Positions 24,522-55,213 of a stretch of DNA of 64,000 nucleotides are shown here, in pieces; position 1 is the stretch's first letter, and every line of letters begins with the position of its first letter. Location of the stretch: contig JAJRXR010000014.1 in NCBI GenBank assembly GCA_024276195.1, positions 30,507 through 94,506 on the forward strand, read 5' to 3'. This DNA is from Planctomycetota bacterium. Its GTDB lineage: Bacteria; Planctomycetota; Phycisphaerae; Phycisphaerales; UBA1924. Under the pieces are notes generated by a model. That model had not been told where the DNA came from, ran no database searches, and saw only the letters and a program-made list of their open reading frames with translations. A program made the position numbers and the translations under genes.

Positions 24522-24577
24522 AGCCGGTTGGAAACCGGCTCTACCAGGGCCAAGGCGCGAGGGCTGGAAGCCCTCGC
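24522..24577. repeat. Two TCC/GGA-loop hairpins between DUF1800 and DUF1501
   Basis: AGCCGGTT-GGA-AACCGGCT (24522-24540) and GCGAGGGCT-GGA-AGCCCTCGC (24557-24577) are perfect hairpins with unrelated stems and the same GGA loop. They belong to the dispersed family seen at several other places in the window. Confidence 0.85.
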
Positions 24578-24592
24578 CTCCGGGGGTGATTT

Positions 24593-26140
24593 CTAACATA
24601 GCTGATACTCCGGCATGGCGGTCACGAGCAGGAGTGCGCCGGTGACGACGTCCTTGCGGACACCGCCGTGTGTTTCGATGAACTCGGTGAGGACGGCGCG
24701 CGCATGGGCGGGCGACTTGCCGAGTGTGAGGCGGAGGAGATAGTCAACGACCTTGCTCGGGTCGTTGGAGGCGCCGGGGTCTCCGGATTCGAGCGAGTCG
24801 AGCAGGGCCATGGGGTCAAAGGTTTCGGAGCCGACGGTCGCGTCGTAGCCGACCGGTTTTTTGCCGGTGAGGAGGAAGGCGAGGATGTTCTGGCGGACGA
24901 ACATGGTGGAGGTGTTGACCCAGGAGCGTCCGCCGTCCCAGCCCTTGACGCTGGGCGGGAAGAACAGGCGCTGGCCCATGAGGTCGAGCGCGTCGTTGAG
25001 CACCGCCAGATCGCGCACCGGCGCGTTGAGCGAACGCACGGCCCCGACGACAAGCTCGACCGGGCTCTTGATCTGCTCGTCCATCACGCTCGGGTGGTAG
25101 AAGTGCTGGCTCTTGAAGAGCTGGCGCAGGACGGGGCGCAGCTCGTAGTCCGAGCGGCGCAGGGCGCTGGCGACCTGCCCGACGATCCGCTTGGTGTCCT
25201 TGGTCTGGCGCGTCGGGTCGGTGGGGATGTGGCGCACAAAGAAACGGTACAGCGTCGAGGCGAGGAACTCCGAGCAGGCGCGCTGGCGGAGAATGGCTCG
25301 GACAAAGCTCTCGCCGTCGTGCGGCGCCCGGACGCCGAGGATGGTCTTGGAGCCGGTGTCGTGGTTCTCCTGGTTGAAGTAGAACTCGTCGTCGCGGAAG
25401 GTGTAGCCGGTGAGGGCGCGGGCGCCCTGCTTGATGTCGCGCTCGGTGTAGGCGCCGACGCCGAGGCTGAAGAGTTCCATCAGCTCGCGGGCGAGGTTCT
25501 CGTTTGGGCGGCGCTTGGACGACTCGTCGTTGTCGAGATACTTGAGCATCGCCGGGTCGCGGATGATCGCGAGCAGAATGTTCCCGAAGTTGCCCGCGGC
25601 ATTCGCCCGGAAGGTCTGGTTCTGCAGGTACATGTGGTACGAGTTCTCGATCGTCCGGTACCCGGTCGCGAGGCGCCCGTGCCAGAAGAGGGTCATTTTC
25701 TCTTCGAAGGGGCGGGGCGTCTCGATCATCCGCTTGAGCCACCAGCGCTGCATCTCGCCGATCTGCTGGCGGTCGCGGCGCTGCGCCTGCTGGCGGCGCA
25801 GGCGGAACTGCGCCAGCGCGTTCTCGTTCTGCGAGCGCTGGGCGGCGCGGCGCTGGCGGCGCTGCTCGTCCGTGGGCGGCTGCATGATGTTGCGGTCAAA
25901 GGCATCGGCGCTCGGCGCCTCGAACGGGACCGCCTCGTAATCGAGCAGGTGGTCCACCGCCTTGTCCAAGCCCCACGACGCGAGCGTCTGGATCTGGGCC
26001 GGGCTGCCTCCGAAGCCGGCGCGCCACAACAGATGCCTCGCCTCGGCGTACCCGAAGCTGCGCCTGTCGATCGGCTTGAGATGGAGCGGGGGCGGCTCGA
26101 CCGGCTCGACCTGTGCTCCCGCTGCGATGCTGGCGTTCAT
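24593..26140 (-). CDS. DUF1800 protein
   Basis: The gene encodes 515 aa. It shows the DUF1800 pattern: RHLLWRAGFGGSPAQ, WWLKRMIETPRPFEEKMTLFWHG, FRANAAGNFGNILLAI, PNENLARELMELFSLG, ARALTGYTF, SVKGWDGGRSW and FVRQNI. It has a Gln/Arg-rich segment at about 88-125. No signal peptide is evident. DUF1800 and DUF1501 proteins are encoded as pairs in planctomycetes and are thought to act together in or on the envelope; no reaction is known. AGGAGG precedes ATG 26140 well. Confidence 0.93.
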   Translation of the reverse strand: MNASIAAGAQVEPVEPPPLHLKPIDRRSFGYAEARHLLWRAGFGGSPAQIQTLASWGLDKAVDHLLDYEAVPFEAPSADAFDRNIMQPPTDEQRRQRRAAQRSQNENALAQFRLRRQQAQRRDRQQIGEMQRWWLKRMIETPRPFEEKMTLFWHGRLATGYRTIENSYHMYLQNQTFRANAAGNFGNILLAIIRDPAMLKYLDNDESSKRRPNENLARELMELFSLGVGAYTERDIKQGARALTGYTFRDDEFYFNQENHDTGSKTILGVRAPHDGESFVRAILRQRACSEFLASTLYRFFVRHIPTDPTRQTKDTKRIVGQVASALRRSDYELRPVLRQLFKSQHFYHPSVMDEQIKSPVELVVGAVRSLNAPVRDLAVLNDALDLMGQRLFFPPSVKGWDGGRSWVNTSTMFVRQNILAFLLTGKKPVGYDATVGSETFDPMALLDSLESGDPGASNDPSKVVDYLLRLTLGKSPAHARAVLTEFIETHGGVRKDVVTGALLLVTAMPEYQLC

Positions 26141-26284
26141 CGGCGCCGTCCTCCTGGGCTGCTTCCCGAGCGTTCAACGCCCGGGGCGCGCGTCCATTGC
26201 CCTCGTTGGGGATCGGCGCGCGACTGTTCCCAGACTATCGGTCCGTCCGACCCGCGCCCACAGTTCCGGGTGATTGGGGGCGGA

Positions 26285-27673
26285 TCAGGGCTCTTTCCGC
26301 CTCAGGCGGTGGGTCCAGAGCACCGCCAGGGCCACCGCCGCGAAAACCAGAGCCCCGCTGGCCTGGTGGACGGTCGTGAAAATCGCCTCGATGCCCTCGA
26401 TCGGATGGGCCGAGGCGAGTTCGTCGGCGCTGGGGATGGGGCGGTCGGCCTTGCTGGGCGGGGCCATGCCCAGCGCCGCCCACCCGAGCAGGAACTGCCA
26501 CCCGACGAGCCCGTGCTGGAGCACGCCGATGCGACGGAGCGTCTTGCCCGGGCGCGTCTGGCGCGAGCCCTTCATGCACAGCGAGCCGCAGATGATGACC
26601 AGCACCAGGACGACAAACGACCAGCCGATGTGCGCATAGAGCGAGTGGGCGCCCTTCTCGACGCCCAGGTGTCGGTAGAGGGCGCCGAAGATGAGCTGGA
26701 CGAGCACGGCGACAAGCGTGACGACCGCGAGCTTGCGCGCGCGCCGGGCTGCCTTGCGGGTGTCGTCATCGAGCAGCCCCGGCGCGTCAATGTACCCGCG
26801 TGTCTGGGCCGCGGCGAGACCGACGGCGAACACGAACGTGATCTGGCCGACGATGCCGTGGACCACACCCATGATCTGCAGGTCTTCGCCGACACGCACC
26901 ATCCCGAAAACACCCTGCACAACAACAAGAATCCAGAGCGCCCAGGTTGCGATTTTCATGCCGGTGCGTCGATCAGCAATCGTCGTGTACACCGCCCAGA
27001 TCAGCGTCACCAGTCCGATCAACTGTGCGAGTAGTCTGTGCGAATGTTCTAGAAAGATCCGCTCCTCACCCATGAGACTGAGTGGAAACAGGAAGCTCAC
27101 GGCGCCGTAGCTTGTCACCGAGTCGGGCACGGACATGCCCGCCTCGGCGCTCGTGACCGCCCCCCCGACCAAGAGCAGGGGCAGGATTGACAAGGCGCTG
27201 ACCACACCCAGGCGCGCGAGCCAGAGCTGTGCGTTCCCCCCGGAGCGTGGGGCGCGGAGCGAGGCGCCGACGAGGCCTGCGATCGCGCCCGCGAAGGTGC
27301 AGGCGAGCAGGAACCCGCCAATGACGATCGCGGCGTTGGGGGCGAGTGTGTTGGCCGCCTCGCCCATCTGCTCGGTGGTTTCGGGCTGCTCGACGATGCG
27401 CATGCCCAGGAGCAAGAGATTGAGCCCCCCCGCGAGGGCGCCGGCGAGCAGGCCGATGAGCCAGCCCGGGCGCCCGCGACCGGACCGGGACACGCCGACG
27501 CCGAGCCCGATGAGCAGGACACCACCGAGGATTGGGGTCGCGATGGTGGTGTCGGCGCGGACGCCGGGCATGTGCAGGAGGAACCAGGCGATCCACATGG
27601 CAACGGTCACGCCGACGCCGGTGACGAGAACTGGTCCCGCGAGCGGGCTTCTGGCGGTGTTGTTGTCGGTCAT
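26285..27673 (-). CDS. ctaA: Heme A synthase (COX15/CtaA)
   Basis: CtaA oxidises heme O to heme A for the cytochrome oxidase; it acts in the membrane. The 462-aa protein has many membrane helices, with the heme ligand His in EHSHRLLAQL (about 220) and GVVHGIVGQ, IGW-type helices, and HQASGALVF near the C-terminus. It is longer than usual (300-350 aa) by an N-terminal region with extra helices. It is divergent from actA, with a 282-bp shared upstream region. GAGAGGA precedes ATG 27673. Heme O synthase (ctaB) is not in the window. Confidence 0.93.
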   Translation of the reverse strand: MTDNNTARSPLAGPVLVTGVGVTVAMWIAWFLLHMPGVRADTTIATPILGGVLLIGLGVGVSRSGRGRPGWLIGLLAGALAGGLNLLLLGMRIVEQPETTEQMGEAANTLAPNAAIVIGGFLLACTFAGAIAGLVGASLRAPRSGGNAQLWLARLGVVSALSILPLLLVGGAVTSAEAGMSVPDSVTSYGAVSFLFPLSLMGEERIFLEHSHRLLAQLIGLVTLIWAVYTTIADRRTGMKIATWALWILVVVQGVFGMVRVGEDLQIMGVVHGIVGQITFVFAVGLAAAQTRGYIDAPGLLDDDTRKAARRARKLAVVTLVAVLVQLIFGALYRHLGVEKGAHSLYAHIGWSFVVLVLVIICGSLCMKGSRQTRPGKTLRRIGVLQHGLVGWQFLLGWAALGMAPPSKADRPIPSADELASAHPIEGIEAIFTTVHQASGALVFAAVALAVLWTHRLRRKEP

Positions 27674-27769
27674 GGGCAAGTCCTCTCGCGCGGGGGCGTG
27701 TAGTAAAAGGGTCAGGGCGTCTGCAAACGGGCGGGCGTCTGGTTATTGAGACCCTGTCTCATTTACGGT

Positions 27770-27799
27770 TTGACAGTGACACGATCGCCAGAGCATACG
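27770..27799 (+). promoter_or_regulatory. Candidate promoter for the actA-cox run
   Basis: A perfect TTGACA (27770-27775) is followed after 18 bp by CATACG (27794-27799), a weak -10. It lies about 157 bp before actA, in the ctaA-actA divergent region. Confidence 0.4.
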
Positions 27800-27955
27800 C
27801 GCCAGGGGTGAGAATTTCGGCTGGGCAGCAATGCGGGAATGCGGCGGTGGTGCTAACCTCCCCGACCACCGCCCGGTTGAGGGCGCGTGGATGGTCTCGG
27901 ATCGGCGGCGCGCCCACAGGGCGTCATCGTCGACCACCAGCGGAGGAGGCGTCGC

Positions 27956-28648
27956 GTGCCAGGCCTGTTTCCACGATGGATGAACGTGCTGCCCACGCTC
28001 GGCGCTCTCGGCGCCATGGGCGGCGGAACCCTCGCGATCGGCGGCGTCTGGTACTACTTCACGCCCTCGTTCTGGGAAGTTGGCTATATGCCCATCCAGC
28101 CGGGCAGCGGGTTCAACCACCAGATCCACGCGGGCAAACTCGGTATGGACTGCCGTTATTGCCACTCGAGTGTCGAAGAATCGCGCATCGCAAACATCCC
28201 CAGCGTGACGACCTGCTACGGGTGTCACGGCGAGGGCAAGCTTCAGAACGTTGAGGAAAAAACGGCGTTCGTCCGCGAGGCGTACGAGACGGACACATCC
28301 ATCCCGTGGCGCCGGGTCCACAAGCTGCCGGATTACGTTCAGTTCTCACACCAGTCGCACCTGTCGGCCGGGGTGAGCTGCTTCTCGTGCCACGGGCAGA
28401 TCAAGGGGTTGCCCGTGGTGGCGCAGGCCAAGTCGCTGTCGATGAGCTGGTGCCTGGATTGTCACCGGAACCCGGAGAACAACCTGGTGCCGACGGACCG
28501 GGTGACAGATCTGATCTGGGTTGAGGAGTGGCTGAGCATGCCCCCGGACGAGCGGGGCGCTGATGGGCAGGCGCAGATGAGCCCGCAGGCGCTGCTCGAA
28601 TCGCTGCGTCGAGACCCACCCGAGAACTGCGGCGCCTGCCACTACTGA
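27956..28648 (+). CDS. actA: Alternative complex III subunit A, pentaheme cytochrome c
   Basis: ActA is the multi-heme c-type cytochrome of alternative complex III, the quinol:electron-acceptor oxidoreductase used instead of bc1. The 230-aa protein has one N-terminal membrane helix (about 12-32) and five CxxCH heme sites: CRYCH, CYGCH, CFSCH, CLDCH and CGACH. GTG 27956 is used because GGAGGAGG lies just before it and the longer frame would add a non-family Arg-rich start. It leads the respiratory operon and probably transfers electrons to ActE or the caa3 cytochrome. Confidence 0.93.
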   Translation: MPGLFPRWMNVLPTLGALGAMGGGTLAIGGVWYYFTPSFWEVGYMPIQPGSGFNHQIHAGKLGMDCRYCHSSVEESRIANIPSVTTCYGCHGEGKLQNVEEKTAFVREAYETDTSIPWRRVHKLPDYVQFSHQSHLSAGVSCFSCHGQIKGLPVVAQAKSLSMSWCLDCHRNPENNLVPTDRVTDLIWVEEWLSMPPDERGADGQAQMSPQALLESLRRDPPENCGACHY

Positions 28649-28744
28649 CCTTTGTTTCCCTGAGACGACTTTCGGCGGACGCACACGACCCCGAGCACGC
28701 GACAGAACCCACAGGCCGAGCGGGCCTGAGAGACAGGGCGGACC

Positions 28745-31700
28745 ATGAGCAAGCTGGAACAGTGCCCATCGACGAAGGACTCGGATCTCACGCCGGAGAT
28801 CGCGGCGCACGCGGGCACGCTTTCGGGGCGCCGGTACTGGCGGAGCCTTGATGAGGTAAGCGAGACGAGCGAGTTCAAGAGCTTTGTCGAGCGGGAGTTT
28901 CCTGCGGGCGCGTCGGAGTTGCTGGGCGAGTCGCGCCGCGACTTTGTAAAGCTGATGGGTGCGAGCGTGGCCTTGGCCGGCGCCGCGACGCTTCCGGGTT
29001 GCCGCCGGCCCGAGCACCACATCCTGGCGTATTCGAGCTCGGTGCCCGAGGAGGTCATCCCGGGCAAGGCGTTGTATTACGCGACAGCGATGGCGCTGCC
29101 CGGGGGCGGGGCCGAGGGGATTCTGGCCGAGACGCACGCCGGTCGTCCGACGAAGATCGAGGGCAACCCGCTGCACCCGGTCAACCGGGGCAAGTCGAGC
29201 ATCTGGGCGCAGGCGAGCGTGCTGACGCTGTACGACCCGGACCGCCTGAAGAACCCGGTGTACCTGAACCCGACATCGGGGCAGAAGGTCGCGACGTGGG
29301 ACGATTTCAAGGTGTGGAGCGCATCGCACCTGAGCGGGTTCGACGCGACGCGCGGGCGGGGCCTGGCGTTCCTTGTTGACAAGAAGACCAGCCCGACGCG
29401 CGACGCGCTCAGGGCGCGGATTCTTGAGCGCTGGCCCGAGGCCGCGTGGCACGCGTACAGCGCGAGCGAGCGCTCCGGCGCCGCCGATGGCGCCCGGACC
29501 GCGTTCGGCTCGCCCGTGCGGGTTCACTACGACCTGTCCAAGGCCAAGCGGGTGCTGAGCCTCGATTCTGATTTCACCTGCGACGGCCCCGAGGCGTTGA
29601 TTCACTGCCGCGACATGGCCTCGATCCGGCGTGTCAAGCACGCGGGCGACGAGATGGGGCGGTTGTATGTGCTCGAGTCGTGCCCGAGCGCGACGGGCTC
29701 GGTCGCGGACCACCGGATCCGCATGGCGCCGAGCCAGATCTCTGCGTTTGCGATGGCGTTGGCCAACGCCCTGGGCGTCGGTCGGTTCAGTGTTCCCGCC
29801 GGGGCGGAGCTCGATCAGGAGGTGGTGTCGCAGATCAGCGACGACCTGCGTTCGCACGGGGCGGGGTCGGTCGTGATCCCGGGCGCGAGCCAGGGCCCGG
29901 AGGTTCACGCGCTGTGCCACGCGATCAACTCGGCGCTGGGGTCGATGGGTTCGATCGTCACAACCTCGCCCATGAGCGCCGACGAGGCGCGCAGCTCGAT
30001 CGAGTCCATCCGGGCTCTGGCGGGCGAGATGAGCGCCGGGCGCATCGACACGCTCGTGTGCATCGACACCAACCCGCTGTTCGACGCGCCCGCCGACCTG
30101 AACTTCGGCGACGCCTTCGCCTCGCTCGGCACGACCATCACCTGGTCCGTGCAGTCCACCGAGACCGCGGCCCGCTCCACCTGGAGCCTCAACGGCGCCC
30201 ATTTCCTCGAATCCTGGGGTGACGCCGAGGCCCACGACGGCACAATCTCGCCCGTCCAGCCGATGATCGCCCCGCTGTATGACCCGGCCATGAGCGACAT
30301 CGAGCTGCTCGCGATCTTCGCGGGCGACGAGCAACCCGACGGCTACGCCCTCGTCCGCGCGACCTGGAGCGCCCGCTCGGGCGCGAGTGTCGAGGACAAG
30401 GCGTTCGCCAAGCTCTGGCGGCGCGCCCTGCACGACGGCGTGCTCGCTGGCTCGGGCGCAACCCGATCAACACCGAGCGTCAACGTGGCGAGTGTCCAGC
30501 GCGCAGCCAGCGCGTTGACGCTTCCGTCCGCGCCGACACAGGAGTCGCTCGAGGTCGTGTTCTCGACCGGGAACGTGGGCGACGGGCGCTGGGCCAACTG
30601 CGGCTGGCTCCAGGAGCTGCCCGACACCGCCTCCAAGGTCGTCTGGGACAACCCCGCCTACGTCAGCCCCGCGACGGCCAAGGCCCTGGGCATCCTGCCC
30701 GACCACACCTGGCAGGACGAGTACAACCCGTACACCAAGTCGCAGATGCCCCAGGCCAAGATGGCGACGCTCACGCTCGGCGGACGCCAGCTCGAGCTGC
30801 CCGTCTGGATCATGCCGGGCATGCCCGACAACACCGTCGTGCTCCGCCTGGGCTACGGCAGGACCGTCTGCGGGCACGTGGGCAACCAGGTCGGCTTCAA
30901 CACCTACGCCCTGCGAACCGCGGAAACGCCCGCGGGCGCGACCGGCGCAACCCTCGCCCGCGCCAGCGGCTCGTACACCATCGCCAGCACCCAGAACCAC
31001 TGGACCATGGCCGGGCGTGACACCATCCTCCGCTCGATCGACAAGAAGTGGTGGGATGAGCACGGGGGCGCCCCGTCCAAGGTCGTCACGGACCACGTCT
31101 ACGGCGGGGACGGCGCGCCGCTGAACATGGCCGAGCAGCTCGGCGAGCTGGCGCACACGCCTCGCAACATCTCGATCTACGACAACCCGTACAACGAATC
31201 GAAGGAAGAGGCCGCCCCCGGGTCGGCATTCTCCAAGGGGCCGCAGTGGGGGATGACGATCGACATGGGCTCTTGCACCGGGTGCGGCGTGTGCACCATC
31301 GCCTGCCAGAGCGAGAACAGCATCCCGATCGTGGGCAAGCGGGAGGTCGCCAAGGGACGCGAGATGCAGTGGATCCGCGTTGACCGCTACTTCGCGGGCG
31401 ACGACCTGAACAACCCCTCGGGCATGCTCAACCAGCCCGTCGCGTGTGTCCACTGCGAGAACGCCCCCTGCGAGACCGTCTGCCCGGTCAACGCGACCGT
31501 CCACGGCCCCGAGGGCACCAACGACATGACCTACAACCGGTGCATCGGCACACGCTACTGCGCCAACAACTGCCCCTACAAGGTCCGGCGCTTCAACTTC
31601 TTCGAGTGGGGCTGGAACAAGTACAACGGACGCTTCTACGGCGAAGACCTCCTCGGCGACGCCCCGATCTCGCAGAAAGACCTCAACAAAAACTTCATCC

Positions 31701-33915: not shown

Positions 33916-33916
33916 C

Positions 33917-35367: not shown

Positions 35368-36725
<1,358 letters not shown>

Positions 36726-42696: not shown

Positions 42697-43632
42697 ATGC
42701 CCATGTCCAGCCCAACGTCCAGCCCAACGCCCAGCCCCGCGTCCACCTCACCAACCGCTGAACACACCCGGGCGCATTCGTTCTCAGTCAAGCCCATCGC
42801 CTGGAGCGGGGTGCTTGTTTCGCTGGTCGTGCTGGTCATCAGCGGCTACATCCTGGCCCAGCGCATCGGCGAGTACAACAAGGCCAACGCACGCCCGATC
42901 TACTCGTTCATCCAGGGCGACAAGACCGACTTCACCTTCCGTGACCGCCCGGTCACGATCCGGGCGGACCTCAACGACGCGGGCGAGGGCGAGGTGCTCG
43001 TCACCTACGCCGACGCGACGCTCCACCTGCCCGTGCAGATCCCGCAGGCGTACGCGTTCCCCGGTCTTGAGCGCTACGCGGACTGGTTCCGGGTGCAGAT
43101 GTTCGCCGAGAGCTCGGGCATGAGCTTCGCCGAGTTCGAGGCCAGGATCAACTCGGGCGAGATCGAGCCCCGCCTCGTGATCGTCACGCGCAACCCGCAC
43201 TCTAAGACCACGCGCGAGGGACGCTTCGAACTCGAGCCGGCCAAAAACTGGGGCTGGGGCGAGGTCCGACGCGACAAATGGACCTTCGGCTTCTACGAGT
43301 TCCTGCCCGAGGGCGGCTTCTCCACCGAGACACTCCGCTTCCCCGAGAGCGGCGCCAGCTTCTACCGACGCCAGGTCAAGGCCGACCTCGCGGGCGATCC
43401 CCCGCCCGAGCGCGCCGACGACGAGCTGCGTGAGGGCTCGTGGCAGTTCCAGGCCGCCCTCCCGCTGATGAACCGTCGCCCGGGCATCACCACCGAGCAG
43501 CAGGGCCTGCGCAACGCCGGCTGGACCCTGCCCGCGGCGTCCGCCTCCATGATCGCGCTGATGGTCTTCCTCGCCTTTGCGCTGGCCCCCAGCCGCGAGC
43601 AGGTCGAGCGCCGGGCCATCAACCAGTCATAA
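42697..43632 (+). CDS. Two-TM protein of unknown function ending the cox run
   Basis: The gene encodes 311 aa. An N-terminal Pro/Ser/Thr-rich start with repeated 12-bp units (around 42706-42740) leads to a membrane helix (about 35-52), an extracytoplasmic domain rich in beta-like stretches (FTFRDRPVTIRADLNDAG, GEVLVTYADATLHLPV) and a second helix near the C-terminus (about 280-299). No family is recognised; a FixH- or assembly-like role is only a guess from position. It follows coxD by 24 bp. Confidence 0.65.
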   Translation: MPMSSPTSSPTPSPASTSPTAEHTRAHSFSVKPIAWSGVLVSLVVLVISGYILAQRIGEYNKANARPIYSFIQGDKTDFTFRDRPVTIRADLNDAGEGEVLVTYADATLHLPVQIPQAYAFPGLERYADWFRVQMFAESSGMSFAEFEARINSGEIEPRLVIVTRNPHSKTTREGRFELEPAKNWGWGEVRRDKWTFGFYEFLPEGGFSTETLRFPESGASFYRRQVKADLAGDPPPERADDELREGSWQFQAALPLMNRRPGITTEQQGLRNAGWTLPAASASMIALMVFLAFALAPSREQVERRAINQS

Positions 43633-43641
43633 CTCCTGGTG

Positions 43642-43662
43642 GCGCCGGTTTCCAACCGGCGC
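43642..43662. repeat. TCC-loop hairpin after the cox run
   Basis: GCGCCGGTT-TCC-AACCGGCGC is a perfect 9-bp stem with the conserved TCC loop. It is 10 bp after the last cox gene stop. Confidence 0.85.
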
Positions 43663-46212: not shown

Positions 46213-46322
46213 GCGGGATTCGTTCGCCGAGGCGGGCACGCCGCGCGTACGATCCGCGACGTGCTTTCGCCAAAAAAATCCCCCATCGGCGCCCCCCGCG
46301 CTCTGAGTACACACGAGGCGCC

Positions 46323-49022
46323 ATGAGCCGCAAGTGGCAGCAAACCAAGCAGTGGGACGACGAGAACCTCCGGGGCCCGCTCGAGCCGCTCCGCCTGATT
46401 CTCCGGGCTCTGAGTTCGGTCTCGCTGGCGGTCGTGCTGCTCACGTTCGTCGCGTTGTACGCCGTGCTCGCGAGCGTGCCCATCGGCCTGCTCGCGATGA
46501 CGCCGACGTACCTCATCGTGGCGCTCAGCCTCGTCGGGATGCTCGTCGTCGTCGCGGTGCTGCCCGTTGTGATCGTGCGCCGCGTCATGCGTCGCGCCAG
46601 CCAACCGGCCCGGTTCACCGTCTCCCTGCTCTCGCTGATCGTGCTGGGTGTTGTTGCCAGCGTGCTCTGGTTTGCGCTGGTCTGGCCCGTGCTCCGGTAC
46701 GACCCGGTCGCGGGGACGGGCCTGCGCCTGTTCCCCGGGTTTGTCAGCGCGTACGAGGCGACGACGCTCCGGCGCCTGCCGATGCTCGAGATGACCGAGC
46801 TGCAGTTCTACTCGTGGTGGCCCCTGGTCGTCGTACTCATGCTGTTTGTGACAAACATGGTCGTCGCCACCTTCCGGCGCATCGAGTTCAACTTCAAAAA
46901 CCTCGGTGTGCTCACCGTCCACTCCGGCATCATCCTCATCGCCCTGGGCAGCCTCTTCTACGCCCGCTTCAAGCAAGAGGGCGACACCATCCTCTTCGCA
47001 TCACAAAACGCCAACACCCTCGGCTCGCCGCAGGTCGCGTTCTACAGCCGTGAGAAGGTCGTGCTCTACATCGCCCAGACCCAGGCCGAGGGCGGGCGCC
47101 CGCGTCCGGGTTCGGTCGCCGGGCACCCGGCGTGGGAGCAGCGCCAGCTGCGCAGGCTGCCGCGCTACAACGATTACAACCTCTTCGCGGGCATCCCCGA
47201 GGGCGCCCGCTCCCTCTGGTCCACCACCGGCGCCGACCGCGCCTGGAAAGACCACCCCGGACTCCCCCTGAGCCAGAAGGTCTCCCCGGGCGCCTCGGGC
47301 CTGGTCGATCCAGACATCCAGTTCCGCATCGTCGGCTACGCCTCCTACGCCACCGCGGGCGAGGATCTCATCGAGCAGCCCCTCGACCCGGGCGCCCCCA
47401 TCCCCGCCGGCTTCCACGCCAACCCGTTGCGTTTCATCGAGCTCTTCTCCCGGCTCGAAGATGAGGGCGATTCCCACGCGGGCCACGACCATGGCCCCGA
47501 CTCTGACCACGAGCACGACCCCGACTCCCCGATCTTCCGCTACTCGCTTTCGCCCACGTCGCCCGTCAACCGGATCTCGGCCAACAGCGCCTTCGGGGTC
47601 GAGTACACCGAGGGCATGGACGAGCGGCGCTGGCGCGATCTGTCCACCCCCGTCCCGCCCGGAACCCAGCAGGCGCTCATCATCGAGATCCCGCGTCAGG
47701 GCGGCGCCTACCGCGCCGCCCTGCCCATCGTCCCGGGCGTCAAGCGCGTGATCTCGGACACGGGATACTCGGTGCGTGTCAAAGAGGTCCTGCCCGAGCC
47801 GCCCTTCCCGATCATCACCCCGGGCTACGAGGGCGCAACAAGCGTCGTCGCGATCGTCGAGATCGAGGCGCCCGAAGGCGAGGACAAGCCCGCCGAGACC
47901 TACGACCGCTGGGTCTACCACCGCTTCCCCGAGATAGCGCAGGACCTGCTCGCCGGCGTCGATCCCGCCTCGGGTCGCCCGGCGCGCCGCGACGCGGACC
48001 TGGGAATCCGTGTCTCTCTGGTCGATGCTTCCATGCTCCAGGTCTACATCGACGGGCGCCCGGATGGCTCGGCCCGCGCCATCATCCGCCAGCCCGGCGG
48101 CGCCGTTCGCATCATCGACCCCATCGCCCCCGGCGAGCGCATCGAGAACATCGTTGACAAGATCGACCTCCGCCTGGCCGACCGCTGGGACCACGCCCGC
48201 CGCTTTGAACGCCCCATCCCCGTGCCCATGGAGGACCGGCGCAACGACCGCGTCGGCACCCACGACGAGGCGCTCATGGGCGTCGAGGTCTCGCTCGACT
48301 CGGGCTGGTCCCGCGTCGTCTGGCTCCCGTTCACCCGCTACATGCACATCCCCGGCCTCGGCACAGAACGCGACGTCACACTCCCCGACGGTCGCACCGT
48401 CCGCATCGCATTCGGGCGTCTCCAGTACCCCCTGCCCGACTTCAGGCTCAGGCTCGTCGATTTCGAGATGATCGCCTACGACCACCGCGGCGCCCCGCGC
48501 GACTACCAGTCCATCGTCCGCGTCGAGCCCAACTCCAACAACGCCGGGTTCGAGGCCTACGAGCACGTCACCAAGCTCAACAGCCCCCTCCGCGCGCCCT
48601 TCCATTGGAGCGAGGAGCGATCGTGGGGCGCCAACGCCCTCCTCCGACTCACCTCGGGCCTGAACCCAAGACAGTTCAAGCTCAGCCAGTCCGGCTGGGA
48701 CCAGGGCGGCTGGACCGAGAGCCAGAAGCTCGTCGATCAGGGCCTGCTCGATCGCCCCCGCGCCAACTTCACCATCCTCGGCGTCGGCAACAACCCGGGC
48801 ATCCACATCATCGCCCTCGGAAGCTTCTTCATGGCCGTCGGCATCCCCTGGGCCTTCTATGTCAAGCCCTGGCTCCTCCGGCGCGAAAAAGCCCGCCTCA
48901 AAGCCGGGCACGCCGCCGATGCTGCCAAGAACAAACCGGACCAGCCCGCGCCCGGTCTCGACCCCAAGCACGAACCCGATGCCCCCGCCGAGGCGAATAC
49001 GCCCGTAGGAGCCGACGCATGA
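46323..49022 (+). CDS. resB: ResB-like cytochrome c maturation protein
   Basis: ResB with CcsA forms System II, which delivers and attaches heme to c-type cytochromes outside the membrane. The 899-aa protein has membrane helices at about 27-55, 63-84, 95-118 and 160-205 and one near the C-terminus (about 822-846), with a very large extracytoplasmic part between, roughly twice the usual size. ILGVGNNPGIHIIALGSFFMAVG is the conserved C-terminal segment. A His/Asp-rich loop (HAGHDHGPDSDHEHD) is at about 381-395. It overlaps ccsA by 4 nt. Confidence 0.88.
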   Translation: MSRKWQQTKQWDDENLRGPLEPLRLILRALSSVSLAVVLLTFVALYAVLASVPIGLLAMTPTYLIVALSLVGMLVVVAVLPVVIVRRVMRRASQPARFTVSLLSLIVLGVVASVLWFALVWPVLRYDPVAGTGLRLFPGFVSAYEATTLRRLPMLEMTELQFYSWWPLVVVLMLFVTNMVVATFRRIEFNFKNLGVLTVHSGIILIALGSLFYARFKQEGDTILFASQNANTLGSPQVAFYSREKVVLYIAQTQAEGGRPRPGSVAGHPAWEQRQLRRLPRYNDYNLFAGIPEGARSLWSTTGADRAWKDHPGLPLSQKVSPGASGLVDPDIQFRIVGYASYATAGEDLIEQPLDPGAPIPAGFHANPLRFIELFSRLEDEGDSHAGHDHGPDSDHEHDPDSPIFRYSLSPTSPVNRISANSAFGVEYTEGMDERRWRDLSTPVPPGTQQALIIEIPRQGGAYRAALPIVPGVKRVISDTGYSVRVKEVLPEPPFPIITPGYEGATSVVAIVEIEAPEGEDKPAETYDRWVYHRFPEIAQDLLAGVDPASGRPARRDADLGIRVSLVDASMLQVYIDGRPDGSARAIIRQPGGAVRIIDPIAPGERIENIVDKIDLRLADRWDHARRFERPIPVPMEDRRNDRVGTHDEALMGVEVSLDSGWSRVVWLPFTRYMHIPGLGTERDVTLPDGRTVRIAFGRLQYPLPDFRLRLVDFEMIAYDHRGAPRDYQSIVRVEPNSNNAGFEAYEHVTKLNSPLRAPFHWSEERSWGANALLRLTSGLNPRQFKLSQSGWDQGGWTESQKLVDQGLLDRPRANFTILGVGNNPGIHIIALGSFFMAVGIPWAFYVKPWLLRREKARLKAGHAADAAKNKPDQPAPGLDPKHEPDAPAEANTPVGADA

Positions 49023-50890
49023 ACGCCCTCAAGCTCACGCCGCGAACCATCCTGATGCTCGTGCTCGCGGCATTCCCCGCCGCCGCCCTCGCCCAGATGG
49101 CGCCCGATGGCAACGCCCGCCCGGAGCAGCCCGTCGTCAACGCGCCCAACACCAACGCCCTGCCCCTGAGCGAGCACGAGGGCGAGCCCACCGCGACGCC
49201 CGCGCAGAAACGCGACTTCGCCCGGGCGGTCAATCTCGATCCGCTGCGAGATCTTGCCGTCGGGCACAACGGGCGCGTCATGATTCTCGACACCCTCGCG
49301 CGCGAGAGTGTCCGCACGATCACCGGGCGCAAGGACTTCATCGACATCATCTCGGGCGAGCAGGACCCGTCCGAGACCAAGACCTTCAAGCCCGACCCGC
49401 TGTTCACCCTCTTCGATTTCATCTTCGACCCGGCGTACTACACCGACAAGCCGCTCATCTACATCGAATACCTCCCCCTCAGGCGAGCTCTGCTCGAGAT
49501 CGCCTTCCCGGGCGATGAGTACGCCCAGGCGGTCTGGAACAAGCGCACCCGCGTCTCGCCCTCGATCATCGACGACAACGTGGAGGAGGTCTTCCGCGAG
49601 TACTCCGACGAGCCCGCCTTCCGGCGCGCCTTCGCCCAGCTCGACGACAAGCACGAGCTCTTCCTCTTCGGCGCCTCCAACCTCCTCCTTGTCGCCCCCG
49701 AGTCCAGGGACAAGGCCTGGCTCCCGCTGACCTCGCTCGAGCCCAACCACCCCACCCGCAAAGCCGCGGCCGAGCTGGCGGACGCCTGGTTCGAGCGCGA
49801 TGTTGACCGGGCCAACAGCGCCATCGCAACCCTTGCAGATGTCCTGCCCACCATCCACCCCGACATCTACCCCACCTCACGGCGCGACCTTGAGCTGATC
49901 TACAACCGCTCCAACGCCTTCACCTGGGGCGCCTGGGTCTATCTCGTCAGCCTCGTCATGCTCGTGCTCGCCATCGGGACCGGGCGCAAGTGGCTCATCA
50001 TCGGCGGCGTCGGCGCCCTCATCCTCGCCATCGCGCTCCACACCTTCGGCTTCACCGCGCGCTGCCTCATCGCCGAACGATTCGCCATTCAGAACCAGTA
50101 CGAGTCCATGACCGGCGTCTCGCTCTTCGCCGCCGTCGTCGGTCTCGTCATCATGGTCTGGCGCCGCCAGTGGTTCTTCGGCGCCGCCGCCGCCGGCGCT
50201 GGCTTCCTCATCCTTACCGGCGCTACCCAGCTCGCCATCCCCGGCAAGTCCATCACCCCCATGGCCGCCATCCTCAACACCTCCGTCCTGCTCAAGTACC
50301 ACGTCACGACCGTCCTCACCAGCTACGGCCTCATCACCCTCGCCATGGTCGTCAGCCTCTTCTACCTCTTCACCCACTACGCCCGGCGAGGACCGACCGC
50401 CATCCACGCCAGCCTGGGCAGCGCGGGGCCTGCTGGCGCTCCGTCCAAAGCCGCGGGATCAGAATCCCGCGGACCGCAGGACTCCAGTCCTGCGGCTTTG
50501 GACTCTTCCTCCCTCTCCCCCTTGGGGAGAGGGCAGGGCGCCGGGTCTTTATCTTCCTCCGCTCCCTCGCGCGCCCGCCTGCTCGCCGATCTCGACCGCG
50601 CCCAGATGGTCATCCTCCAGCTCGCGTTCTGGACCCTGGGCGTCGGCACCCTCCTCGGCGCCTGGTGGGCCGACCACTCCTGGGGACGCTGGTGGGCCTT
50701 CGACCCCAAAGAAACCTGGGCACTCATCACCTGGATCATCTACCTCATCGTCATCCACGCCCGCTTCGGCATGGGCGGCGAAAAGCGCGCCCTCGTCACC
50801 GCCTGGCTCTCCGTCCTCGGCTTCCTCGTCATGCTCTGGACCTACTTCGGCGTCAACCTGCTGCTGCCGGGATTGCACGCGTATGCGTGA
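49019..50890 (+). CDS. ccsA: CcsA/ResC-like cytochrome c maturation protein
   Basis: CcsA exports heme and ligates it to apocytochromes. The 623-aa protein has a signal-like start and a ~280-residue N-terminal extracytoplasmic region followed by about eight helices, with the WWD-domain segment WGRWWAFDPKETWALITW near 560 and a His in TVLTSYGL/HVTTVL helices. Between helices (about residues 475-505) a Ser/Gly/Pro-rich stretch is encoded by a cluster of palindromes (50443-50533), an insertion not expected in the family. ATG 49019 overlaps the resB stop. Confidence 0.88.
   Translation: MNALKLTPRTILMLVLAAFPAAALAQMAPDGNARPEQPVVNAPNTNALPLSEHEGEPTATPAQKRDFARAVNLDPLRDLAVGHNGRVMILDTLARESVRTITGRKDFIDIISGEQDPSETKTFKPDPLFTLFDFIFDPAYYTDKPLIYIEYLPLRRALLEIAFPGDEYAQAVWNKRTRVSPSIIDDNVEEVFREYSDEPAFRRAFAQLDDKHELFLFGASNLLLVAPESRDKAWLPLTSLEPNHPTRKAAAELADAWFERDVDRANSAIATLADVLPTIHPDIYPTSRRDLELIYNRSNAFTWGAWVYLVSLVMLVLAIGTGRKWLIIGGVGALILAIALHTFGFTARCLIAERFAIQNQYESMTGVSLFAAVVGLVIMVWRRQWFFGAAAAGAGFLILTGATQLAIPGKSITPMAAILNTSVLLKYHVTTVLTSYGLITLAMVVSLFYLFTHYARRGPTAIHASLGSAGPAGAPSKAAGSESRGPQDSSPAALDSSSLSPLGRGQGAGSLSSSAPSRARLLADLDRAQMVILQLAFWTLGVGTLLGAWWADHSWGRWWAFDPKETWALITWIIYLIVIHARFGMGGEKRALVTAWLSVLGFLVMLWTYFGVNLLLPGLHAYA
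50443..50533 (+). repeat. Palindrome cluster inside ccsA
   Basis: An outer inverted repeat GTCCAAAGCCGC / GCGGCTTTGGAC (50443-50454, 50492-50503) encloses two perfect hairpins: CCGCGGGAT-CAGA-ATCCCGCGG (50451-50472) and CCGCAGGACT-CC-AGTCCTGCGG (50474-50495). A fourth, CCCTCTCCCC-CTT-GGGGAGAGGG, is at 50511-50533. All four can fold in the message; the reading frame stays open. Confidence 0.85.
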
Positions 50891-50931
50891 TGCACGCGCC
50901 GTTCACCCGGCTGCGCCTAAAAGCCCGGTGC

Positions 50932-51003
50932 CACGGCTGACCCCGATAGGGGCAGCCGTGCTCTCCCGTCAACGCCCACGCCTGCCCTAGCGGGTCAGGC
51001 GTG
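50932..51003. repeat. Two hairpins between ccsA and the DNA glycosylase gene
   Basis: CACGGCTG (50932-50939) with CAGCCGTG (50953-50960) and CACGCCTG (50977-50984) with CAGGCGTG (50996-51003) form two stem-loops; the outer halves are themselves related as an imperfect inverted repeat. Loops contain CCC...GGG that extends the stems. No T-run follows. Confidence 0.7.
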
Positions 51004-51021
51004 CCACCGATATCCTTCCCC

Positions 51022-51726
<705 letters not shown>

Positions 51727-51871
51727 ACTCGGGCGAAACTTCGGGGATTCACGATCCGCCGTCAGGGCGAGAGCGAATAAGACGGTGCATACCATAGTCC
51801 ATGCCGGGCACGACCCCGGCGCCCGCCCGACCCGTACCCCCGGGCGGATCAGCCTCGCTGGGAGCCGTTCC

Positions 51872-52300
51872 ATGTCCCAGGAAATCGACCTCAAACAGAT
51901 CATGCTCCAGGCCGGCGGCTACGCGCCCGAGTCCTACCGCTTCATCCGCGACGGACTCGCCCATACCGTCCGCACCATCCACGGCGACGCCGCCCTCGAA
52001 GCCCCGCCCACCAGCCAGGACGACGAGGACTCGCGCCACGTCTCGGGCGAACAGCTCTGCAAGGGCCTGCGCGACTTCGGCCTCGATCAGTACGGCTTGC
52101 TCGCCAGGACGGTCCTGTGCCGCTGGGGCATCCGCTCGACCGAGGACTTCGGCAAGATCATCTTCGCCATGGTTGACGCCGGCCTCATGCGCACCACCGA
52201 CGACGACCGCCTCGAAGACTTCGTCAACGTCTACGACTTCTCCGAGGTCTTCCGCGAGCCCGACCCCACAGGCCCCGTCGCCGCCGGCTCACGCAACTGA
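51872..52300 (+). CDS. Minf_1886-family protein
   Basis: The gene encodes 142 aa. Patterns IMLQAGGYAPESYRFIRDGL, HVSGEQLCKGLRDFGLDQYG, LCRWGIRSTEDFGKIIFAMVDAGLM and the tail EDFVNVYDFSEVF match a small soluble family shared by Planctomycetes and Verrucomicrobia, of unknown function. ATG 51872 has TGGGAG at 51859-51864; an 87-bp longer frame lacks homology. Unlinked neighbours on both sides. Confidence 0.85.
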   Translation: MSQEIDLKQIMLQAGGYAPESYRFIRDGLAHTVRTIHGDAALEAPPTSQDDEDSRHVSGEQLCKGLRDFGLDQYGLLARTVLCRWGIRSTEDFGKIIFAMVDAGLMRTTDDDRLEDFVNVYDFSEVFREPDPTGPVAAGSRN

Positions 52301-52328
52301 GCGAGTCTGACCCCAGCACGCGGGTGCC

Positions 52329-52355
52329 GTGGAGACGCCGCTTCGGCTTCTCCAC
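52329..52355. terminator. Possible hairpin after the Minf_1886 gene
   Basis: GTGGAGA...TCTCCAC outer and GCCG/CGGC inner pairs make a 12-bp stem with one C-T mismatch. No T-run follows, so terminator function is uncertain. Confidence 0.35.
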
Positions 52356-52420
52356 GACCAGCGTCAGGCATGCAGAAGGCTGGCGCCGTCTACACGCCCC
52401 CATGCGGGATGTTCAGGATG

Positions 52421-52444
52421 GCGCGAGCTCACGCTCGCGGCTGG
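52421..52444. repeat. Half copy of the CCGAGCCGCG-type palindrome
   Basis: GCGCGAGCTCACGCTCGCGG and the following bases repeat one arm of the element at 14617-14640 (the final C differs: CTGG instead of CTCGG). The partner arm is missing here. Confidence 0.75.
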
Positions 52445-52509
52445 GATCTGTGTTTCGCCGTCCTCCTCCCAAACCGGCGCCCCCCCCCGGCTTGCGATAG
52501 CCTGCCCCC

Positions 52510-53817
52510 GTGAGCGACGCCGACCCAACGCCCAGCCCCGACCCAGCCCCCGCCCCGGACCAGCACGATTCCAAGTGGTCGCGCCTGCACCTCTGGGAGA
52601 TCCAGGGCGTCCGCGACGTGCTCGTCATCCTGGGCGTCTTTGCGCTGTTCTGGCTGGGCCAGAAGGTGAGCGTCGTCACGGTCCCGGTCCTGCTCGCGAT
52701 CCTGCTCGCGTACTTGTTCGAGCCCGTGATCAACTGGCTGACGCGCAAGACCCGTCTCAAGCGCACCGGCGCCGTCGTCGCCATCATCACCGCCACCATC
52801 GCCCTCGTCGTCATCCCCTCCATCCTGGGCCTGACCTACGGCGTCGTGCAGGGCGTTGGCCTCGCCGGGCGCGCGACAACCAACATCGGCCTCATCAGCA
52901 AGTACGTCAGCGAGCCCGCGCCCGTGGGATTTGAGGGTGAGCCCGCCTTCGACAGCGCCCAGCGCACGCTCGATCGCGCGCGATCCGAACTCGAGAGCGT
53001 TGGCTCCGCCTGGATCTGGATCGGCGATCAGATCCGTGAGAAGGAAGACTCCGGCTTCGCGCAGGCCTTCGACACCATCGAGTCCTGGGCGAATACCAAC
53101 GCCGACCGCATCGCCCAGACCGCCACCGCCGCCGGTGTCGGCGTCGTCCAGACCGCGCTCGGCTTCCTCGCCTCCGCCTTCGCGCTCATGTTCATGGCCT
53201 TCCTGACCATCTTTTTCTTCTTCTTCTTCAGCACCGGCTGGGTCCACTTCAAGGGCTTCACGGGCCAGCTCCTGCCCGACAAAAACCGCGACCTCATCAT
53301 CGACCTCGCGACCAAGTTCGATCGTGTCATCTCCGCCTTCATCCGCGGGCGCCTGACCATCGCCTTTATCCAATCGATCGTCTTCACGATCGGCTTCTGG
53401 CTCATCGGTGTGCCCGCCGCCTTCATCCTGGGTCCGGCCGTCGCCCTGCTCTCGATCGTCCCCTACCTCGCGCTCATCGGCGTGCCCGTCGCCATCGTCC
53501 TGCTCTGGCTCGAAGCCCACACCGGCATCCGCGGCAATCTCATCTGGGTCCTCGCCGCCCCGCTCGGGTTCTACTTCTTCGCCCAGGCTCTGGACGATTA
53601 CGTCTGGACGCCGCTTATCCAGGGCAAGTCCACGGACATGTCCACGCCCATGATCCTGTTCGCCTCCATCGCCGGCGGCGTCCTGTTCGGCATCTTCGGT
53701 CTGCTCATCGCCATCCCCATCGCCGCCTGCCTCAAGATCCTGATTCAGGAGGTTTTCTGGCCCCGCTTCAAGGACTGGGCCGAAGGTCGGGCGAGCGATG
53801 TCCTGCCCATCGACTGA
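52510..53817 (+). CDS. AI-2E-type permease (PerM/YdiK-like membrane protein)
   Basis: The gene encodes 435 aa with about eight membrane helices and an acidic Asp/Pro-rich start. Landmarks include VPVLLAILLAYLFEPVINWL, FLTIFFFFFFSTGWVHF, FDRVISAFIRGRLTIAFIQS, PAAFILGPAVALLSIVPYL, LDDYVWTPLIQGKS and GLLIAIPIAACLKIL. The family includes AI-2 exporters and ion antiporters, so transport substrate is unknown. GTG 52510 start. Confidence 0.9.
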   Translation: MSDADPTPSPDPAPAPDQHDSKWSRLHLWEIQGVRDVLVILGVFALFWLGQKVSVVTVPVLLAILLAYLFEPVINWLTRKTRLKRTGAVVAIITATIALVVIPSILGLTYGVVQGVGLAGRATTNIGLISKYVSEPAPVGFEGEPAFDSAQRTLDRARSELESVGSAWIWIGDQIREKEDSGFAQAFDTIESWANTNADRIAQTATAAGVGVVQTALGFLASAFALMFMAFLTIFFFFFFSTGWVHFKGFTGQLLPDKNRDLIIDLATKFDRVISAFIRGRLTIAFIQSIVFTIGFWLIGVPAAFILGPAVALLSIVPYLALIGVPVAIVLLWLEAHTGIRGNLIWVLAAPLGFYFFAQALDDYVWTPLIQGKSTDMSTPMILFASIAGGVLFGIFGLLIAIPIAACLKILIQEVFWPRFKDWAEGRASDVLPID

Positions 53818-53871
53818 CCCGGGCAACTCCCCAGACTTGCACTTCGCGCCCAACCGAGAGAAGATCCACCC

Positions 53872-54243
53872 ATGACTGATACACCCGAAGCCCCCCCCCA
53901 GCAGCCTGCCGCTGCCCCAGCCGGCCCAGGCGCCCCCAACATCATCCGCATCCCGATCCTGATCTCAGCGATCCTCAATAGCTTGCTTGCATTATCTTGG
54001 ATCCCCTTTTGCATCACGATCATTTTGACGGTTCCGCTCGCTGTGCTGGCGGTCTTCGAGATATTGCTCTTCATCAATCTGGGCAAACCCGACTACGCGA
54101 CCCGCAAGCCACGCATCAAGCTCATTGCGATCCTTGAGATGTGTGCCGTTCTTCTTGGCAGTGTGGGCGCCTTGGTCTGCGGCATCATCGTCATGGTCAA
54201 CCTCGACAAGGCCATCCCCGACGGACCCGCCGCCGAAGCCTGA
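53872..54243 (+). CDS. Small membrane protein of unknown function
   Basis: The gene encodes 123 aa. A Pro/Ala-rich start is followed by three hydrophobic segments (about 20-45, 48-64, 80-106). No family is recognised. Codon use in the middle (53970-54150) is less GC-rich than the neighbours, which may reflect transfer or weak constraint. It is followed by a terminator-like hairpin. Confidence 0.65.
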   Translation: MTDTPEAPPQQPAAAPAGPGAPNIIRIPILISAILNSLLALSWIPFCITIILTVPLAVLAVFEILLFINLGKPDYATRKPRIKLIAILEMCAVLLGSVGALVCGIIVMVNLDKAIPDGPAAEA

Positions 54244-54272
54244 TTCAATACACCCAGCCAACCAACAAACGA

Positions 54273-54309
54273 CCGAGCCGCAGGCCCACGCCCGCGGCTC
54301 GGTTTCTTT
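54273..54309 (+). terminator. CCGAGCCGC hairpin with T-run
   Basis: CCGAGCCGC (54273-54281) pairs with GCGGCTCGG (54294-54302), then TTTCTTTA. The arms share the CCGAGCCGC core of the longer elements at 14576 and 22296. Confidence 0.85.
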
Positions 54310-54312
54310 ATC

Positions 54313-54414
54313 GGTGGGGCAGGCGTCCCGCCTGCCTTGGTTTGCCGAGGTGGGTCAGATGGCAGGCGGGACGCCTGCCCCACCAAAGACGAGATGACAG
54401 GCCAGACGCCTGTC
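54313..54414. repeat. TCC/GGA-loop nested palindrome plus a related hairpin
   Basis: A perfect 24-bp inverted repeat (54313-54336 with 54361-54384) contains GGCAGGCG-TCC-CGCCTGCC and its inverted copy with loop GGA. A third hairpin GACAGGC-CAGAC-GCCTGTC follows (54396-54414). It lies between convergent genes. Confidence 0.88.
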
Positions 54415-54424
54415 CCACCAATCC

Positions 54425-55033
54425 TCAATCCTCCGTCTCGACCTCCGCCCGCCCATCCGCCGGCAGCATCCCCGCCGGCACCGGACGCTCGGGCGTCTCC
54501 GTGTCCCACACGATCAGCAGCACCTTCCACCCGCTGCCCTCGTCCGCCGGGTCTTTGACGAGCTGGATGCTGTTGACCCCGCGCGCCACCGCCCTCCCGC
54601 CAAGCTCGTTGTACGTCTCGTAGGTGCTGAAGACGTGCGCCATCCGCCCGAACACCTGCACGTTGTCCCAGACGCTGGCCTCATAGAACGAGTTGGACTC
54701 CATGTGGGCGCCGGCGCGTTCGATGTATTCATCGGGCGTCCATGTGATGCGCTTGGGCGCGACCGCCCCCGTCCCAGCCACGCCCCCGTCACCGCCCGCC
54801 GGGCGACCGCGTGTAAACAGCGACATCCGCCCATCGTCGGTGAACATCTCGCGGAACGCGTCCCAGTCCCGCTCCTGCCCCGCCGGGCCAGAGATCACCT
54901 CGTACATCGCCTCGACCGCCGCGAGCGCCTCCGCCTCGCTCCGAGCCTGCGCGCTCGCCTCAACCCCGTACCACCCCGCCCCAGCAAGGGTCGCGGTCGA
55001 AATAACAACAGCCGCAATCGTCATCGTGCGCAT
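54425..55033 (-). CDS. Exported SnoaL/NTF2-like protein
   Basis: The gene encodes 202 aa. A signal peptide (MRTMTIAAVVISTATLAGAGW) leads to a domain of the NTF2/SnoaL style: ALAAVEAMYEVISGPAGQERDWDAFREMFTDDGRMS and WDNVQVFGRMAHVFSTYE. These folds bind small ligands or act in isomerisation, but key residues cannot be fixed. ATG 55033 with GGAGG nearby is preferred to a longer start. Minus strand, between two palindromes. Confidence 0.75.
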   Translation of the reverse strand: MRTMTIAAVVISTATLAGAGWYGVEASAQARSEAEALAAVEAMYEVISGPAGQERDWDAFREMFTDDGRMSLFTRGRPAGGDGGVAGTGAVAPKRITWTPDEYIERAGAHMESNSFYEASVWDNVQVFGRMAHVFSTYETYNELGGRAVARGVNSIQLVKDPADEGSGWKVLLIVWDTETPERPVPAGMLPADGRAEVETED

Positions 55034-55121
55034 GGTCTGTGCCCTCCGAAGGTTGAGCCGATCGTACCGAGAACTCCAAAGGCGCGTTGCACGGGCCCTC
55101 TCTCCGCCTCCTCCGTCCCCT

Positions 55122-55213
55122 CGTGGCACGGGCGTCCCGCCCGTGATCTACCACTTCTTCTTCTTCTTCTTCTTCTATTTTGTCAATCGCACGGGCGAGA
55201 CGCCCGTGCCACG
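55122..55213. repeat. TCC-loop nested palindrome enclosing a CTT microsatellite
   Basis: A 15-bp outer inverted repeat (55122-55136 with 55199-55213) contains CACGGGCG-TCC-CGCCCGTG and CACGGGCG-AGA-CGCCCGTG. The centre has a 23-bp CTT run (55154-55176). It lies 4 bp downstream of the ffh stop (minus strand). Confidence 0.88.

Follow-up and report, generated by a model that had tools for sequence, protein, structure and literature searches.

The stretch of DNA analyzed here (the window) comprises 64,000 nucleotides of a Phycisphaerales-like planctomycete genome (assembly GCA_024276195.1, contig JAJRXR010000014.1, positions 30,507 to 94,506 of the forward strand). It carries short perfect hairpins whose three-nucleotide loop reads TCC (GGA on the other strand), some lying between genes, some right after stop codons, and one in frame within a gene. 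These hairpins are very probably repetitive extragenic palindromic (REP) sequences and their inverted doublets (REPINs), accompanied by a clade of REP-associated tyrosine transposases (RAYTs) that reside as in-frame domain insertions within housekeeping enzymes. This in-frame residence in host genes is the surprise of the analysis, and it was absent from the original prediction made for this DNA.

At least seven perfect TCC/GGA hairpins had been predicted in the window. A scan for perfect hairpins with 3-nt loops recovered six of the seven listed sites (24522, 24557, 43642, 51386, 54318, and 55127), with perfect stems of 8 to 9 bp, and added a seventh at 54361. The remaining listed site, 50474, reads CCGCAGGACT-CC-AGTCCTGCGG; there the T pairs, the loop has only two nucleotides, and the hairpin is a member of a different repeat family. 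Single REPs, each preceded by a 5′ tetranucleotide foot, lie on the minus strand at 24522 to 24544 (family F4; foot GTAG, then AGCCGGTT-TCC-AACCGGCT), with a DUF1501 gene on one side and a DUF1800 gene on the other, and at 24557 to 24581 (family F3; foot GGAG, then GCGAGGGCT-TCC-AGCCCTCGC), and on the plus strand at 43638 to 43662 (F4; foot GGTG, then GCGCCGGTT-TCC-AACCGGCGC), about 10 nt past the stop of the open reading frame (ORF) at 42697 to 43632. Three nested palindromes of 67 to 92 bp had also been proposed, and inverted doublets of this kind are a hallmark of REPINs. Only the one at 54313 to 54384 consists of two perfect TCC hairpins (family F2; an inverted pair of GTGG plus GGCAGGCG-TCC-CGCCTGCC, downstream of the ORF at 53872 to 54243), whereas the other two doublets are imperfect. 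At 55122 to 55213 (F2), GTGG plus CACGGGCG-TCC-CGCCCGTG is joined to an inverted partner whose loop reads TCT on that strand, and the element adjoins the end of ffh (55218 to 56744, minus strand). At 51381 to 51447 (F3, plus strand), GGAG plus GGGGGGGCT-TCC-AGCCCCCCC has a degenerate second arm and lies in frame within the gene for methylpurine-DNA glycosylase (MPG; 51001 to 51726, plus strand; Pfam PF02245, E 9.9e-59). We refer to the genomes compared by handles of the form G000 and to loci by those of the form L001; the MPG REPIN is present in G000 and G002, while in G001 the site is empty, with the frame kept and 25 codons fewer.

By the standard that the original prediction set for itself, TCC loops had to be commoner than other 3-nt loops among stems of like length and GC content, and overall they are, in the part of the genome sampled. 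The sample came to 725,315 bases in 37 stretches, the window among them, or roughly one quarter of the genome, with three masked stretches left out. Of its 183 perfect hairpins with a 3-nt loop and a stem of at least 7 bp, 44 had the loop TCC/GGA, as did 34 of the 80 whose stem reached at least 8 bp; the runner-up loops numbered 15 and 4, respectively. Ten first-order Markov simulations returned the loop in 2 to 6 of 97 to 114 hairpins at the lower stem length and in 0 to 2 of 24 to 40 at the higher one, and TCC/GGA makes up 4.2% of the eligible 3-mers (rank 11 of 25). Broken down by stem GC content, the share was 13/46 below 0.7, 30/116 from 0.7 to 0.9, and 1/21 at 0.9 or above, so that the most GC-rich stems show no excess. 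These stems apart, the simulations and the counts of other loops rule out chance palindromes and GC bias as the source of the hairpins.

By our reading of the hairpin list, 42 of the 44 TCC hairpins sort into four families, each with a fixed inner stem: F1, GTAG-ATCGGCTC-TCC (11 hairpins, the foot being present in 10); F2, GTGG-nnnnGGCG-TCC (11, plus one variant, GTGG-ACGGGCT, counted within the 42); F3, GGAG-nnnnGGGCT-TCC (14); and F4, GTAG or GGTG with CGGTT-TCC (5). The classical GTAG foot is thus confined to F1 and part of F4. The stems had been described as unrelated in sequence, which holds for the outer 3 to 4 bp in two families but not for the inner stem of any. In F3, for example, four outer stems occur (GGTG, GGGG, GCGA, and GGGT), each with its complement. 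When elements were chosen by their 5′ arm only and the pairing of the outer stem was then scored, 52 of 56 cells were paired in F3, 59 of 72 in F2, 17 of 23 in F4 (where one match is plainly no hairpin), and 40 of 40 in F1, which is uninformative on covariation because its stem is invariant. The predicted retention of symmetry and loop while part of the stem changes is therefore borne out in F3 and F2. The foot is kept as well, and such a pattern is most naturally read as recognition of, or selection on, structure. We found no sign of a separate symmetry-making mechanism, which had also been suggested; correction of the stems by template switching is still a rival in this respect. Such quasipalindrome correction during replication is a known process, would require no transposase to produce symmetry, and would account for the compensated outer stems within a family, but it yields neither a fixed foot and loop nor the match, described below, between RAYT flanks and dispersed stems. 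We consider it rather unlikely as the explanation of the hairpins, although it could operate in addition to the REP/RAYT system.

The hairpins had further been set apart from ordinary REP/RAYT repeats, and this contrast has to be abandoned. With a foot before the TCC strand, a constant inner stem, and RAYT genes between inverted copies for three of the four families, they are, on sequence criteria, REP/REPIN elements, and four families of them coexist in a single genome. The RAYTs emerged from a search for a transposase that had been recommended along with the prediction. Pfam family PF01797 (Y1_Tnp) matches six places in the genome, five of them above the cut-off, and inverted TCC hairpins flank three of these places: GGAG-GGGGGGGCT at L001, GTAG-ATCGGCTC at L002/L009, and GTGG-(C)ACGGGCG at L004. 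The hairpin of the MPG REPIN is the same as that of the pair flanking the RAYT in rdgB, and the RAYT in valS is flanked by a pair from the hairpin family represented at 55122 to 55213. At a further Y1_Tnp place, L005, the flanking hairpins have TCAC or GTAA loops. A repeat type with the former loop, GCGCGAGCTCACGCTCGCGGCTCGGTT, occurs in the window at 14616, 22335, 52421, and 54278, and the same stem flanks the free-standing RAYT of L005, where a truA-like frame (L005:2-778) also contains an in-frame CCCTCTCCCCCTCGGGGGAGAGGG palindrome.

As to the identity of the transposases, all three nested domains tested score above the 80-bit cut-off of NCBIfam NF047646, "REP-associated tyrosine transposase" (93.1, 94.0, and 91.6), and the closest solved structure by sequence is TnpAREP (4er8). 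Among the 63 nested copies checked, the HUH motif is present in 62 and the Tyr motif in 61. PHROGs returned families of unknown function only. Exact counts in seven genomes, which include each RAYT's own flanking copies, show that each of three RAYT-flanking hairpins is most numerous in the genome holding that RAYT: the stem of the leuS RAYT of G000 has 25 copies there versus 2 in G036 and 0 in five others, the G017 stem has 15 versus 4, 1, and 0 in four other genomes, and the G010 stem has 4 versus 0 in six others. Genome-specific stems of this kind are difficult to reconcile with the hairpins being signals at the RNA level (terminators or stabilizers of mRNA) whose symmetry is kept by selection on RNA folding. 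Several window hairpins do stand right after stop codons, and the stems do pair by compensation, as such signals might. Left unexplained are the fixed feet outside the stem, the inverted doublets, the RAYTs between inverted copies, and the copies within coding sequence (MPG, MetRS, and ValRS). We regard this alternative as very unlikely, while allowing that some copies may be used as terminators.

Three frames in this genome run from host sequence through a RAYT and back into host sequence, in rdgB (Ham1 family), leuS, and valS. A profile built from these three nested copies and run over 61 related genomes gave 123 hits, of which the best 23, from 16 genomes, are the members of the clade. All 23 lie in frames of 399 to 1689 amino acids (aa), versus 9 of the 100 other hits in frames of at least 350 aa (Fisher p ~6e-18, for hits that share ancestry and a profile that was itself built from nested copies); these nine other frames are at most candidates for nesting, and one in G046 has no match to the clade profile. 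According to Pfam and to BLAST against identified hosts, the 23 hosts are 9 valS, 8 rdgB, 5 leuS, and 1 miaA. Host sequence flanks the RAYT on both sides in 21, and the other two stop at contig ends. Profile searches detected a single copy of rdgB in 8/8 genomes, of ValRS in 9/9 (we read the matches below the cut-off as IleRS, LeuRS, and MetRS), and a single full copy of LeuRS in 5/5. The host is interrupted at the same place in 9/9 valS genes (between profile positions ~365 to 394 and 375 to 378) and in 8/8 rdgB genes (~122 to 127), and in leuS at one site in four genomes and at a different site in G000. One ValRS-RAYT frame satisfies the valS equivalog (774 versus a cut-off of 612) and NF047646 (88.7 versus 80) simultaneously. 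RAYTs are expected to be free-standing genes, and all 23 clade members depart from this; we keep them in the RAYT family, as a new variant, because their sequence, motifs, and flanking hairpins agree with it. A related observation comes from a 1201-aa MetRS frame of G000 (L193:10676-14278, minus strand), which carries an in-frame cluster of F1 hairpins just before the "AKDILWFH" motif strand, in a place that looks homologous to the site interrupted in leuS of G000.

Whether the nested RAYT has a start of its own was judged from the 40 codons that precede the LPH motif. An ATG is present there in 19 of 50 nested copies versus 18 of 22 free ones, and any start codon (ATG, GTG, or TTG) in 40 of 50 versus 21 of 22. 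The idea of a conserved internal start was dropped, yet the nested RAYT may still be translated separately, since some start codon is available in 40 of 50. Rfam and Pfam speak against an intron or intein: no Rfam family matched at the gathering score in 14 nested-RAYT loci, and no intein family was among the Pfam hits (E ≤0.001) of 11 fusions, whose terminal splice residues were not systematically examined.

Most of the assemblies are metagenomic, and one might suspect that the nested frames are dead insertions, assembly errors, or artefacts of gene calling. This we hold to be extremely improbable. The frame from host through RAYT to host is open in many assemblies, including those of G051 (2 contigs) and G015 (~20 contigs); the same site recurs across genera; the host gene has one detected copy; and the ratio of nonsynonymous to synonymous substitution (dN/dS) of the nested RAYTs is 0.05 to 0.38 in nine pairs (rough for five of them, because dS exceeds 1), as expected under purifying selection. 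An AlphaFold2 model of an RdgB-RAYT protein, built from five sequences, places the RAYT (about residues 176 to 296, well predicted) between RdgB strands 129 to 140 and 319 to 333, with poorly predicted linkers. By Foldseek, one match to RdgB/HAM1 structures extends over 382 columns (TM score 0.80 by target length), and TnpAREP 4er8 matches with a TM score of 0.66 by target length. As modeled, both folds are recovered in one protein.

A tree of 86 RAYTs clusters by host gene, with 25 label changes versus a shuffled mean of 57.7. A miaA copy falls within the leuS clade and two rdgB copies fall within the valS clade; these exceptions contradict strict vertical descent and show that jumps occur. 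Long residence with occasional jumps is the history to which the tree points. The valS site varies among relatives: it is empty in G001 and G009, holds a lone in-frame REP in G016 and a longer stretch without a RAYT in G036, and in G005 is occupied by a RAYT of another class (RAYT-B). A search for RAYT-B in the 61 genomes gave 40 hits, six of them in frames of at least 350 aa, and four of the six are valS genes interrupted in the same loop (G005, G043, G044, and G047; loci L213, L216, L222, and L215). No host was seen for the RAYT-B loci L237 and L241, and a frame of 401 aa was recorded in G020. Because RAYT-B and the first clade lie in the same ValRS loop, two RAYT classes must have reached one site independently. 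In-frame stops occur in 13 of 34 short-frame RAYT-B hits versus 0 of 6 long-frame ones, numbers too small to uphold the idea that nested copies are protected from decay, which we have dropped.

It might also be proposed that the host enzyme has recruited the RAYT domain for a function of its own, and the purifying selection on the RAYT and its moderate codivergence with the host would be in keeping with this. On the other hand, presence is patchy, orthologues without the insertion exist, the RAYT class has been exchanged at one ValRS site, and the hosts are unrelated to each other; we judge recruitment to be improbable.

Nested RAYTs are not restricted to this order. A strong match to the clade was found in 66 of 392 genomes of the phylum, in short and long frames both. 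Among named genomes, 315 loci were found and 80 kept, in a list biased toward sequences related to the nested query; in 39 of these 80, the RAYT has an open frame of at least 80 aa on both sides. Of 37 further loci examined with Pfam, 20 have, by our reading, host domains on both sides and the remainder on one side or neither; hosts among the 20 include AlaRS, RecG, PriA, PurH, IleRS, MetH, a ThrRS-like synthetase, MgsA/RarA, GcvP, a helicase, and an oxidoreductase. The genome names with nested loci belong to Planctomycetota and Verrucomicrobiota. At L163, a single open frame runs from an FAD-binding domain through the RAYT to an FMN oxidoreductase domain. RAYT open frames at L156, L157, L160, L172, and L173 occur with Eco57I-type methylases, the host domain being on one side only.

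Several observations weigh against REP/REPIN hairpins served by in-frame RAYTs as a complete account. Almost all the genomes compared are metagenome assemblies; the valS gene of G000 is in two pieces on two contigs, and G011 has an additional 147-aa LeuRS fragment. The divergence of the RAYT tracks that of its host only moderately (r 0.40 to 0.42; p 0.014, 0.004, and, for leuS with four rows, 0.24). No cognate RAYT for F4 was found in this genome; an F4-like hairpin, GTAG-GGCCGGTT-TCC, does stand upstream of the rdgB RAYT of G036. The valS copy L071 is without the Tyr motif, and at 15 of the 63 nested loci our script did not find an inverted hairpin pair. The loop is not universally TCC: among 24 pairs with rdgB, valS, leuS, and miaA hosts it is TCC in 18, TCT in 4, TTC in 1, and TGC in 1, and in Verrucomicrobia it consists mostly of other letters. 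The short frames among the 392 genomes mean that the clade has free-standing relatives in other parts of the phylum. Finally, the RdgB-RAYT model is weak (mean pLDDT 64.9).

Elsewhere in the window, palindromes of other families, including the 50474 site, occupy 50454 to 50533, in frame in a cytochrome c assembly gene (ORF 48605 to 50890). They read CCGCGGGAT-CAGA-ATCCCGCGG, CCGCAGGACTCCAGTCCTGCGG, and CCCTCTCCCCCTTGGGGAGAGGG, and the region exceeds its counterparts in G002 and G001 by 96 nt and 36 nt, respectively, both multiples of 3. An exact 30-nt direct repeat lies at 899 to 964, in two copies 36 nt apart.

The arrangement invites comparison with several known systems. Inteins, too, reside in frame in indispensable genes (often those of replication or of aminoacyl-tRNA synthetases), at recurrent sites and with sporadic presence; here, in contrast, the mobile enzyme would be an HUH transposase, and the fusions scanned gave no intein domain among their Pfam hits. 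With the REP/REPIN-RAYT systems (REPtrons) of Proteobacteria and other phyla, the elements share the foot tetranucleotide, the short hairpin, inverted doublets, a Y1/HUH transposase between inverted hairpins, and several families per genome. They differ in their GGAG and GTGG feet, in a TCC loop common to families with different stems, and in the RAYT itself lying in frame in a host gene. One study (PMC3733652) describes REPs in Planctomycetes and Verrucomicrobia, with a GTGG foot in O. terrae, dimers, and REPtrons, as well as in-frame palindromes (intragenic REPs and the Rickettsia palindromic elements) in genes that often serve DNA repair and tRNA metabolism, aminoacyl-tRNA synthetases included. 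Those are small noncoding repeats, whereas here a whole transposase is in the gene, at recurrent sites. A 2018 survey and classification of TnpAY1 (PMC6006769) reports REPs located within tnpAREP genes whose reading frame stays intact and places class 3 mainly in Planctomycetes and Acidobacteria; RAYT-B shares with that class the motifs NHVH, WT, and YVxxEQ but differs in that 4 of its 40 hits are in frame in valS. By its own account, that survey discarded unexpectedly long proteins. Searches of open PubMed Central papers turned up no description of a RAYT gene residing in frame within a host gene.

Taken together, each hairpin family is very probably a short nonautonomous mobile DNA hairpin with its own 5′ foot and inner stem, and three of the families have a matching RAYT (a Y1/HUH single-strand transposase). 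Most likely the RAYT recognizes the foot, the loop, and whether the stem is paired, so that the outer stem bases would be free to change as long as pairing is kept. The clade RAYTs themselves appear to be domain insertions in surface loops of ValRS, LeuRS, and RdgB (one detected copy of each) and also of MiaA, with predicted translation within the host protein. Presumably the transposase gene moves as single-stranded DNA, and its insertions persist only where they disturb neither frame nor fold. A place in an indispensable gene would then supply expression and guard against deletion while the element feeds the REPIN population. Beyond the anatomy and the comparison of genomes, this mechanism borrows from the biochemistry of IS200/IS605 elements and RAYTs, as treated in part in PMC6006769.

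RAYTs and REPINs are thought to persist very long in bacteria. On balance, we lean toward a transposon that lives as a translated domain in indispensable enzymes, with host-dependent expression, in-frame jumps from gene to gene, a sustained REPIN population, and reentry into the same tolerated loops (one ValRS loop is shared by RAYTs of two unrelated classes and by a lone REP); its persistence would resemble that of an intein, with no known splicing. Surveys that drop "unexpectedly long" transposases would overlook such nested RAYTs. For the host enzymes, the fusions provide naturally occurring examples of large inserts in aminoacyl-tRNA synthetases and in enzymes of repair, and they identify sites that tolerate a 200-residue domain, while the many RAYT-hairpin pairs now available offer material for learning how foot, loop, and stem are read. 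A transposase within the sole detected copy of ValRS or LeuRS suggests a testable answer to the question of how a RAYT and its REPINs escape deletion.

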